DNA of 64,000 nucleotides from Parvibaculaceae bacterium. GTDB lineage: Bacteria > Pseudomonadota > Alphaproteobacteria > Parvibaculales > Parvibaculaceae. The notes beneath the pieces were generated by a model that was not told the origin of the DNA, searched no databases, and worked only from the letters and a program-made list of their open reading frames with translations. The stretch is from contig JAPWJY010000002.1 of assembly GCA_028283765.1 (NCBI GenBank), forward strand, positions 186,001 through 250,000, given 5' to 3'. Both the position numbers and the translations under genes were made by a program. Shown one piece after another: positions 32,038 through 55,752 of the stretch. The stretch's first letter is position 1, and the number at the start of each line of letters is the position of its first letter.

Positions 32038-32090
32038 CTGTCACCCTGCCTTGTCATGGTTCATGAATCAGGCGGGAGTATAGCAGGCTC

Positions 32091-47192: not shown

Positions 47193-47268
<76 letters not shown>

Positions 47269-47315: not shown

Positions 47316-47969
47316 TTATGTGATACGCAAACGCGGCTCGGCTGCCGGCTCCAGCACACGGCACAGCCGTAATGCGGTTGCGGCGACCTCGCTGACCGGG
47401 CGGACATAGCCCTGCCCGATCCATTGCAGGGCAATATGGATGATGCCGCCGACGATCCCGATCATCAGCAGTTCGTCGGACGGCCCGTCGGCGGCCTTTC
47501 CCGGATAAAGGGTCCGCTCGATCAGAACGCCAAGGTCGCACAAGGAATTCTGAAGCTCCCGGTCCATCTCGGCGCTGACGCCGCTGATTTCGACCAGAAA
47601 GACCCGCGCCGGGGCCGGGGAGCGCTTCAACCCCTCATAATAGGCCGTGAGCATGGCCCGCACTCTTTCATAGCCATCCGCCAGGTCCGACGCCGCGCCC
47701 GCCCGGGCGACCTCCTCGAACAGATGGTCGGTAACCGCCCTGAAGGAGGCGATCAGCAACGCCTCGCTGTTGGGGAAGCTTTCGTAGAAATAGCGTTCCG
47801 TCAGGCCCGCCGCATCGCAGACCGACTTGACCGTCGCCTGGCGGTAGCCCCGCTCTCCATAAACCTCGACCGCGGCCATGATGAACTGTTCGCGGCGGCG
47901 CGCGCGCCGTTCATCGGCGGTGGAACCCTTGTAGCGCCGGTCTGCGGCAGGAGCGGGGACGGGAGTCAT
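47316..47969 (-). CDS. TetR-family transcriptional regulator
   Basis: A 217-residue regulator. The N-terminal helix-turn-helix region is EQFIMAAVEVYGERGYRQAT and VKSVCDAAGLTERYFYESFP (residues ~28-70), with a C-terminal ligand-binding domain. It is divergent from the Baeyer-Villiger monooxygenase gene, and two copies of TGACA-N8-TGTCA lie between them, so it most likely represses both the monooxygenase and itself and responds to a hydrophobic ketone, steroid or terpenoid-like ligand (inference). Confidence 0.92.
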   Translation of the reverse strand: MTPVPAPAADRRYKGSTADERRARRREQFIMAAVEVYGERGYRQATVKSVCDAAGLTERYFYESFPNSEALLIASFRAVTDHLFEEVARAGAASDLADGYERVRAMLTAYYEGLKRSPAPARVFLVEISGVSAEMDRELQNSLCDLGVLIERTLYPGKAADGPSDELLMIGIVGGIIHIALQWIGQGYVRPVSEVAATALRLCRVLEPAAEPRLRIT

Positions 47970-47979
47970 GCTTTTTTAT

Positions 47980-47997
47980 TGACACAGATCATTGTCA
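47980..47997. promoter_or_regulatory. TetR operator copy 1
   Basis: An 18-bp inverted repeat: TGACA, an 8-bp spacer CAGATCAT, TGTCA. It is 11-28 bp upstream of the TetR gene start and 54-71 bp upstream of the monooxygenase start. Confidence 0.7.
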
Positions 47998-48006
47998 GAT
48001 ACAAGT

Positions 48007-48024
48007 TGACAAGAAACAATGTCA
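48007..48024. promoter_or_regulatory. TetR operator copy 2
   Basis: The same arms and spacing as copy 1 (TGACA, spacer AGAAACAA, TGTCA). The two copies are 27 bp apart start to start. Being duplicated in the short divergent region supports specific binding by the adjacent regulator. Confidence 0.7.
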
Positions 48025-48050
48025 CTTGGACAGGGCAGAAGGACGCATCC

Positions 48051-49607
48051 ATGGGTATTCATCAATCCGGTCTGGCCGCGCCGCAGAGAGGCGCATCCCC
48101 TGCGGAAGCGACGCATTTCGACGTGCTGATCGTCGGCGCGGGCCTGTCGGGCATCGGGGCCGCGGCCCATCTCCAGATGAAATGCCCGGACAAGAGCTAC
48201 GCCATCATGGAGGCGCGCGACGCGCTCGGCGGCACATGGGACCTCTTCCGCTATCCCGGCATCCGTTCCGATTCGGACATGTACACGCTCGGCTATTCCT
48301 TCAAGCCATGGACCGATCCGAAGGCCATCGCGGGCGGCCCCTCGATCCGGAGCTACATCGCCGAAACGGCGCGCGAGCGCGGCATCGACAAGCATATCCT
48401 GTTCAGCCACAAGATCGTCAGCGCCGACTGGTCCGCCGCCCGCTCGCTCTGGACCGTCGAGGCCCGGAAGGGCGAGGAGACTGTCCATTTCACCTGCGGC
48501 TATCTGCTGATGTGCAGCGGCTATTACAGCTATGCCGAGGGCTACCGCCCCACCTTCGCAGGTGAGAGCCAGTTCAAGGGCCAGATCATCCATCCCCAGT
48601 TCTGGCCGGAAAATCTGGACTACAAGGGCAAGCGCGTCGTCATCATCGGCAGCGGCGCGACCGCCGTGACGCTGCTCCCGGAAATGGCCCGCGACGCCTC
48701 CCATGTGGTCATGCTCCAGCGCTCGCCCTCCTATGTGGTGTCGCGCCCGTCGCAGGACTCCATCGCCGAGAGCCTGAAGCGCCGCCTGCCCTCGATGCTC
48801 GCCTACCAGCTCGTGCGCTGGAAGAATGTGCTGCTCGGCATGTTCTTCTTCCGGCTCGCCCGCAAGAAACCGCAGCAGGTGAAGGAGCGGATGATCGGCT
48901 GGGTGCGCGACCATCTGGGACCGGACTATGACGTCGAAAAGCATTTCACCCCCAGCTACAACCCCTGGGACCAGCGCGTCTGCGCCGTGCCGGACGGCGA
49001 TCTGTTCCGCGCCATCCGCAAGGGCAAGGCCTCGGTGGAAACGGACACGATCGACACATTCACGGAAAACGGGATCAGGCTTGCCAGCGGCAAGGAACTC
49101 GACGCCGACATCGTCGTCACGGCGACCGGGCTCAAGCTCAACCTGCTTGGCGACGTCGCCTTCAGCCTGGACGGCAAGGCCTGCGACATGTCCCGTCACC
49201 TTGTCTACAAGGGCTTCATGTTCAGCGGCATCCCCAATCTGGGGCAGACCTTCGGCTACACCAACGCCTCATGGACGCTCAAGGCCGATCTGACGGCGGA
49301 ATACATGTGCCGCCTGCTCAATTATATGGACAAGCACGGCTACACAGCCGCCACGCCCCGGCCCGAAGCCGGCGTCGAGGAGGAGCCGTTCCTCGACTTC
49401 TCCTCGGGCTATGTCCAGCGCGCGCTCGACATGCTGCCCAAGCAGGGCTCGAAAAGGCCGTGGAAACTCTACCAGAACTATGCGCTCGACATGCTCACGC
49501 TCCGGCTGGGCAGGCTCGACGACGGTTCCATGGATTTTTCGAGCGCACCCGCCTCTAAGGCGGAAGCCCCGGTACCCGCCGCTGCTGAAAAGCGCTCCGC
49601 CGCCTGA
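48051..49607 (+). CDS. Flavin-containing (Baeyer-Villiger type) monooxygenase
   Basis: A 518-residue class B flavoprotein monooxygenase. The FAD motif is VLIVGAGLSGIGAAAHLQ and the NADP motif VVIIGSGATAVTLLPEMA. FKGQIIHPQFWP is the BVMO fingerprint FxGxxxHxxxWP. Members insert oxygen next to ketones or hydroxylate, often on cyclic or terpenoid substrates. The Ala/Pro-rich C-terminal ~20 residues look disordered. ATG 48051 follows AGAAGGACGCATCC; the frame is open far upstream only antisense to the TetR gene. Single gene, divergent from its likely repressor. Substrate unknown. Confidence 0.92.
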   Translation: MGIHQSGLAAPQRGASPAEATHFDVLIVGAGLSGIGAAAHLQMKCPDKSYAIMEARDALGGTWDLFRYPGIRSDSDMYTLGYSFKPWTDPKAIAGGPSIRSYIAETARERGIDKHILFSHKIVSADWSAARSLWTVEARKGEETVHFTCGYLLMCSGYYSYAEGYRPTFAGESQFKGQIIHPQFWPENLDYKGKRVVIIGSGATAVTLLPEMARDASHVVMLQRSPSYVVSRPSQDSIAESLKRRLPSMLAYQLVRWKNVLLGMFFFRLARKKPQQVKERMIGWVRDHLGPDYDVEKHFTPSYNPWDQRVCAVPDGDLFRAIRKGKASVETDTIDTFTENGIRLASGKELDADIVVTATGLKLNLLGDVAFSLDGKACDMSRHLVYKGFMFSGIPNLGQTFGYTNASWTLKADLTAEYMCRLLNYMDKHGYTAATPRPEAGVEEEPFLDFSSGYVQRALDMLPKQGSKRPWKLYQNYALDMLTLRLGRLDDGSMDFSSAPASKAEAPVPAAAEKRSAA

Positions 49608-55677: not shown

Positions 55678-55752
55678 TCCTCTGGAAGTAAGTCAGATAG
55701 ACAATATGTATTGTCAGGGGTTGCCTCTATGGGACCCCGGAAGGAGTTGCAA

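Follow-up and report, generated by a model that had tools for sequence, protein, structure and literature searches.

Paired candidate TetR operators and a predicted promoter in the gap between divergent tetR and EthA-like Baeyer-Villiger monooxygenase genes

The 81-bp gap between a TetR-family regulator gene and a divergent gene for a type I Baeyer-Villiger monooxygenase (BVMO) in a Parvibaculaceae bacterium carries two exact copies of the palindrome TGACA-N8-TGTCA. This gap is very probably a shared control region, in which the TetR protein, acting as an autorepressor, blocks both promoters until a ligand releases it, and in which the two sites are spaced to suit a promoter with 17 bp between its -35 and -10 hexamers. 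The arrangement is real, functional-looking and ordinary in kind, and it is the promoter geometry in its closest relatives that is informative. The features, in coordinates of the window (the whole stretch of 64,000 nucleotides that was analysed), are as follows.

47316..47969, minus strand: TetR-family regulator gene (open reading frame of 217 amino acids; PF00440; recognition helix LTERYFYESF)
47980-47997: operator 1, TetR-proximal, TGACACAGATCATTGTCA, an exact match to TGACA-N8-TGTCA
47991..48019, minus strand: weak candidate tetR promoter, with -35 TTGTTT at 48014-48019 and -10 GACAAT at 47991-47996 (complement); 7 of 12 positions
47992..47997, plus strand: predicted BVMO -35, TTGTCA, the right arm of operator 1; best forward match, 9 of 12 positions with its -10
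48007-48024: operator 2, BVMO-proximal, TGACAAGAAACAATGTCA, an exact match to TGACA-N8-TGTCA
48015..48020, plus strand: predicted BVMO -10, AACAAT, in the spacer of operator 2; 4 of 6 positions to consensus
48037..48043, plus strand: Shine-Dalgarno-like AGAAGGA, 7 nt before the BVMO ATG, read from the sequence
48051..49607, plus strand: EthA-like type I BVMO, 518 amino acids (PF00743, Rossmann motifs, fingerprints)

The initial annotation had placed two copies of the palindrome at these positions, 27 bp apart in a divergent gap of about 80 bp, and this description holds. Both copies are exact, their starts lie 27 bp apart (9 bp from edge to edge), and the gap measures 81 bp (47970-48050) from the TetR start codon, the complement of 47967-47969, to the BVMO ATG at 48051, with operator 1 starting 11 bp from the TetR start codon. 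The G+C content is 41% in the gap and 64% in the window as a whole. When the window was shuffled 100 times with its dinucleotides preserved, exact sites averaged 0.02 per shuffle and no shuffle held two or more. The genome search that had been proposed for the 18-bp site returned four exact places in 3,236,079 bases (3.24 Mb): the two operators, one site inside a 306-amino-acid reading frame that matches no Pfam family (L001) and one where two convergent reading frames meet, between their 3' ends (L002), neither of the latter being at a readable gene start where reading frames are called mechanically. At one mismatch or fewer there are 44 places in the genome versus 12 for a backward control, so that the motif alone is weak evidence and the case is carried by position and comparison.

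A regulon beyond the locus was rejected after inspection of L001, L002 and four of the 40 one-mismatch sites. One of the four, TGACACAGACCATTGTAA (L103), differs little from operator 1 and, as it coincides with a probable start codon, is coding; a second (L105) is inside a reading frame, as is the exact site of L001; a third (L104) belongs to another TetR gene. In this last case (G000:C3:1440287-1440328, positions 1488-1529 of L104) a different TetR gene faces an Oxidored_FMN gene across a gap with two palindromes, CGACAGCAATAACTGTCG and TGACAGCAATCGCTGTCC, and twin operators are thus not unique to the BVMO locus. The fourth, AGACAATATGTATTGTCA at 55699-55716 of the window, has palindromic arms of 7 bp and differs from the operator at one position; it lies in the gap between an apparently Hsp20-like gene and a small gene that resembles DUF1150. 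Of 18 loci of the latter gene, only those of the window and of G004, which belongs to the same genus, have this palindrome, the remaining 16 lacking it. It was set aside. Another one-mismatch site lies at 32039 in the window.

The neighbouring gene was rightly called a class B flavin monooxygenase. Its product has both Rossmann motifs (GAGLSG at 29, GSGATA at 200), scores 60.8 bits against the FMO-like family PF00743, and carries GGTWDLFRYPGIRSD at 60 and FKGQIIHPQFWP at 175, matching the two type I BVMO fingerprints that are given in the cited part of PMC4498894 as [A/G]GxWxxxx[F/Y]P[G/M]xxxD and FxGxxxHxxxW[P/D]. We describe it as EthA-like because it is 53% identical over 489 amino acids to a mycobacterial BVMO (L057) whose divergent neighbour matches PDB EthR at E 8e-76; it is a close relative of an EthA that stands beside EthR. 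The next gene is on the other strand, so the window BVMO stands alone. In one Massilia locus (L008) an alpha/beta hydrolase reading frame lies downstream of the BVMO on the same strand, and in one Cupriavidus locus (L006) a Coq4-like reading frame does. A BVMO and a hydrolase acting in turn convert a ketone to an ester and the ester to an acid and an alcohol, and an arrangement such as that in L008 would fit this chemistry.

The regulator has the N-terminal TetR_N helix-turn-helix domain (PF00440, 35.6 bits against a cut-off of 24). Its AlphaFold2 model (mean pLDDT 88.1, nine helices) has the predicted all-helical TetR fold with a C-terminal ligand domain, the best PDB match reaching Z 17.6 over 188 residues at an rmsd of 2.8. 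Among the closest solved folds are Rv0078/EthR2 (Z 17.6), FadR (17.4), FasR (16.9) and EthR (16.5); differences in Z under 1 were counted as ties, and with the scores tied the fold names no ligand. The NCBIfam models for FasR and FadR score far below their cut-offs on this protein (44 of 330 and 42.7 of 200 bits). Just past the 3' end of the gene is a tRNA-Ala (GGC) gene at 47193-47268. According to the cited portion of Ahn et al. (PMC3511530), TetR genes less than 200 bp from a divergent neighbour most likely regulate that neighbour, and the window pair, with its 81-bp gap, follows this rule.

To place the sites in a comparative setting, we searched genome contigs with the window TetR protein, blind to the site, and obtained 50 loci. 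Six of these have a divergent BVMO more than 58% identical to that of the window: a sister MAG titled Hyphomicrobiales bacterium (L005), two Cupriavidus (L006, L007) and three Massilia (L008, L009, L010); a seventh pair, from Cupriavidus campinensis (L075), came from a plasmid search. These seven are the closest TetR-BVMO pairs that TetR similarity yielded, and each retains one site or more, in L010 with one mismatch. Together with the window and L135, which were chosen by site, they make up the nine closest pairs, with TetR proteins at least 52% identical. Operator 2 is exact in eight of the nine, the window included, and has one mismatch in L010. Operator 1 has an identical sequence in L005 and L107, two loci of the same genus that perhaps come from one genome; it is an exact match in L006, L007, L075 and L135, and degenerate in the Massilia loci L008-L010. 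Taken over all 50 loci, a 250-bp stretch around each TetR start, nominally 12,500 bp in total, contains 29 sites that are exact and 12 with one mismatch, against one of each in the other 383,283 bp. The earlier proposal that these are TetR operators with autorepression is therefore supported by comparison: the divergent TetR-BVMO pair is conserved with its sites, and autorepression is the natural reading of a site 11 bp from the TetR start.

The same site stands upstream of homologues that face other genes: a Coq4-like gene (L015, L019, and L016 at one mismatch), an Oxidored_FMN gene (L011), a metal-hydrolase gene (L033, L036) and, in Acinetobacter, an SDR gene (L077). The inducer thus need not be a BVMO substrate. 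An exclusive link with BVMO genes is opposed by nine loci of Nocardia (L025, L028, L029, L030, L032, L033, L038, L043, L054), in which an EthA-type BVMO more than 52% identical lies downstream of the TetR gene and on the opposite strand, so that the site is not at the BVMO start. A more distant divergent TetR/EthA-type pair (L152, in G114; helix LTNRYFYESF) has a two-mismatch site only, which counts against the pattern. L109 has an exact site with a TetR protein 36% identical, and its 59% identical BVMO stretch is on the same strand as the TetR gene rather than divergent. In Burkholderia, L076, the one examined of four TetR homologues, has a different helix and lacks the site. In another set of nine Nocardia loci (L026, L030, L031, L034, L036, L037, L040, L041, L054) the operators read TGACATCANNTGCTGTCA or near it, and each overlaps a two-mismatch palindrome 16 bp on, CAACATCANNTGATGTCA or near it, forming a tighter twin.

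A scan for the twin pattern that was blind to gene content, over 398 genomes of the window's phylum, matched six, the window included, with two for the backward control. Four of the six (the window, G083, G421 and G240) have a homologous TetR gene and a divergent BVMO gene at the site, the BVMO of G083 being only 26.5% identical to that of the window and belonging to another clade. Around the matches in G117 and G314 there is no TetR or BVMO homologue, within about 1.5 kb on each side in G117 and on a contig that ends 180 bases from the site in G314; genes for an ABC transporter and a DHDPS-family protein are among the neighbours there.

The site also follows the recognition helix. We judged 75 distinct TetR sequences, leaving out the window and the loci selected by site; the comparison set includes nine LARPTFYRYF-type TetR genes from the same Nocardia loci, and the helix class, [LV]T[EAN]RYFYESF, was defined after most of these sequences had been inspected. 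An exact site lies upstream of 28 of the 48 helix-class genes versus 0 of 27 with other helices, and a site within one mismatch upstream of 39 of 48 versus 2 of 27, leaving nine helix-class homologues without one, which counts against the association. A later set of 19 loci was gathered by running a profile against 385 genomes from the window's class and 369 from that of G421, after dropping loci already seen and L145 of the site-selected G421. There, exact sites accompany 6 of 7 helix-class genes versus 3 of 12 others (p 0.02). Allowing one mismatch weakens the link, with sites at 6 of 7 helix-class genes and at 6 of 12 others (Fisher p 0.17). Both p values overstate the significance, since several rows share a genus or genome and are related by descent rather than independent. 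The three exact sites outside the class belong to near-variant helices (LTERYYYEAF twice, LTKRYFYESF), suggesting that the class was drawn too narrowly. These observations bear on whether the sites might instead serve a different transcription factor, or the palindromes be nothing but facing sigma-70 -35 hexamers: the arms do contain TTGACA/TTGTCA, one of them the predicted -35, yet the 18-bp palindrome accompanies TetR homologues in alpha-, beta- and gammaproteobacteria and in Nocardia, before unrelated targets, and tracks the recognition helix, which makes either idea very improbable.

What the 27-bp spacing is for can be addressed in the nine closest pairs. Taking positions 9-14 of the BVMO-proximal operator as the -10, we scored the hexamers 10-27 bp upstream against TTGACA. 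A 17-bp spacing gave a mean score of 4.89 of 6 across the nine pairs, and every other spacing 2.78 or less. Exactly 17 bp upstream is TTGTCA in eight of the nine pairs and TTGCCG in the ninth, with -10 hexamers in the relatives such as TATGTT, TATGGT, TACAGT and TAGAGT, and in a free scan the same -35/-10 pair is the best forward match in each of the nine gaps (tied in L008). Five pairs have operator 1 at the 27-bp distance (in degenerate form in L008), and since its right arm supplies the TTGTCA, this hexamer is built in there. In the other four, from about two lineages (Cupriavidus-like and Massilia), the TTGTCA or TTGCCG hexamer is separate from operator 1 and keeps the same 17-bp distance: L006 and L135 have a 39-bp operator spacing, and in L009 and L010 operator 1 has decayed. 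Since the -35 is kept where operator 1 has moved or decayed, the promoter seems to be conserved even without the twin arrangement. So the 27-bp operator spacing in the closest pairs probably reflects the 17-bp -35/-10 geometry and not repressor cooperativity.

None of the six more distant pairs examined has this geometry. In L134, L141 and L142 (TTGACA-17-CAATGT) the -10 falls between the operators, L137 has TTGACA-18-CAGAGT, L144 has GTGACA-18-CATATT, and L152 has TTGACG-17-TATATT without an exact operator; the BVMOs of L137 and L152 are EthA-type (52% and 51%). L134, L141 and L142 come from a single genus of alphaproteobacteria and have identical sequence, TTGTCAGATGCAATGTCGATATTGACA, between their operators; the operator spacers differ. 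The window's predicted -10, AACAAT, is a poor one, and a general promoter scan gave one promoter-like match, not above the shuffled mean (0.4, sd 0.7). The candidate tetR promoter is the best match on its strand, with one hexamer in each operator, and is of low confidence; its position is conserved only in L005 among the other pairs, and its location is not convincing.

The initial annotation had also predicted cooperative control, which would mean that one dimer helps the next to bind and produces a sharp switch. We counted spacings in the 56 TetR-homologue loci that have an anchor site within one mismatch, among which L004 (the window), L135 and L137 had been chosen by site. A second site within one mismatch, 19-80 bp away, recurs in 18 of the 56, as a cooperative pair would lead one to expect. 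However, the spacings are 25-29 bp in ten loci, 32-34 bp in five, 39 bp in two and 77 bp in one, which puts the dimers on different faces of the helix without a constant phase; Massilia keeps operator 2 while operator 1 decays; and promoter geometry already accounts for 27 bp in the close pairs. Cooperation is thus unsupported, and we regard it as unlikely; independent occupancy of the operators is the likelier arrangement compared with contact between dimers. In L148 and L150, of one genus in the class of G421, three sites stand in a row upstream of a TetR homologue (one exact and two one-mismatch, at spacings of 28-29 and 25 bp), and the divergent gene in L148 is an SDR.

Under the autorepressor reading, in the ligand-free state one TetR dimer would occupy each TGACA-N8-TGTCA site. 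Operator 2 would cover the predicted BVMO -10, and operator 1 would cover the predicted -35 and abut the tetR start, so that occupancy of both would keep tetR and the BVMO gene low. A small molecule entering the helical C-terminal domain would then release TetR and turn on both genes, the two sites being presumably spaced to fit the 17-bp promoter rather than to bring dimers into contact. Some TetR-family proteins act as activators, and the sites could in principle serve autoregulation alone, with the regulator activating the BVMO gene or affecting it only indirectly. In favour of this, operator 1 adjoins the tetR start, and in some relatives the site-bearing homologue has no BVMO facing it. 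Against it, conservation is stronger for operator 2, which contains the predicted BVMO -10 in all nine closest pairs, and we consider such a role improbable. The ligand can be guessed at: the enzyme class, and the fold neighbours FadR and FasR, which were solved with acyl-CoA, might point to a ketone or a long-chain lipid-like compound.

Among known systems, the mycobacterial EthR/EthA pair is the most similar in layout, with a TetR-family gene divergent from an EthA-type type I BVMO across a short common gap; the L057 BVMO adjoining EthR, to which the 53% identity refers, is taken as EthA. The window TetR itself was rejected as an EthR orthologue, being 25% identical over 64 amino acids (E 0.003) to the L057 protein that matches the PDB EthR chains, and 13-14% identical to EthR in structural alignments of the model. 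Unlike the window operators, the EthR motif is described in the cited part of PMC4482099 as larger, more complex and not a classical palindrome; the same passages call the physiological role of EthR unknown. No TGACA-N8-TGTCA within two mismatches occurs around the gap of L057, the one EthR locus compared. EthR2 (Rv0078) and the FadR/FasR-type regulators are among the closest solved folds of the model, yet share only about 13-22% identity with it in structural alignments. AlmA, the BVMO of long-chain alkane breakdown, is likened here by description alone as a group B flavin monooxygenase; in the relevant sections of PMC11784139, AlmA of A. baylyi oxidises C10-C16 2-ketones. Its control as described in the literature differs from that proposed here, an AraC/XylS activator acting in A. 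venetianus and AlmR repressing in Alcanivorax. That Alcanivorax AlmR might be a TetR protein was not borne out, a predicted Ig-like domain being mentioned in PMC11784139. EdcR of Caenibius tardaugens is similar in being a repressor with a putative palindromic operator overlapping a -10 box, as set out in part of PMC8700777, and differs in operator sequence and target cluster. A search confined to openly licensed literature, with few subscription papers, found no paper on this operator or TetR subfamily.

Of 98 relative genomes searched (its own included), nine have a TetR match at E 1e-20, and the close version is present only in the window's genus (G000, G004); identity is 33-36% for the homologues in five genomes of the same family and 44-45% for those in two genomes of the same class. 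Among the fetched loci, the next nearest complete pairs are in Cupriavidus and Massilia, which suggests transfer. A broader picture, which we offer tentatively and think somewhat less probable than its negation, is that these regulators form a coherent TetR subfamily not described before. Its members would share a recognition helix that hardly varies (LTERYFYESF or something close to it) and a single fixed operator, TGACA-N8-TGTCA, which is often present twice. The subfamily would have passed between Nocardia and the alpha-, beta- and gammaproteobacteria, serving as a ready-made repressor of Coq4-like genes, metal-hydrolase genes and unrelated oxidoreductases, the last including SDR, Oxidored_FMN and no fewer than two BVMO clades, and its members would respond to one shared class of ligand. 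In the window's EthA-type branch, the twin operator would have come to overlie the two promoter hexamers, -35 and -10, of the enzyme gene.

The 18-bp operator and the recognition-helix signature together predict targets for TetR proteins that the family libraries used leave unnamed, and the gap provides a compact repressor-promoter part adjoining an EthA-like BVMO. As an EthA-type enzyme is found here beside a regulator other than EthR, the pairing of enzyme and regulator has probably arisen on more than one occasion, and such independent EthA-type pairs could help to narrow down the natural substrate.
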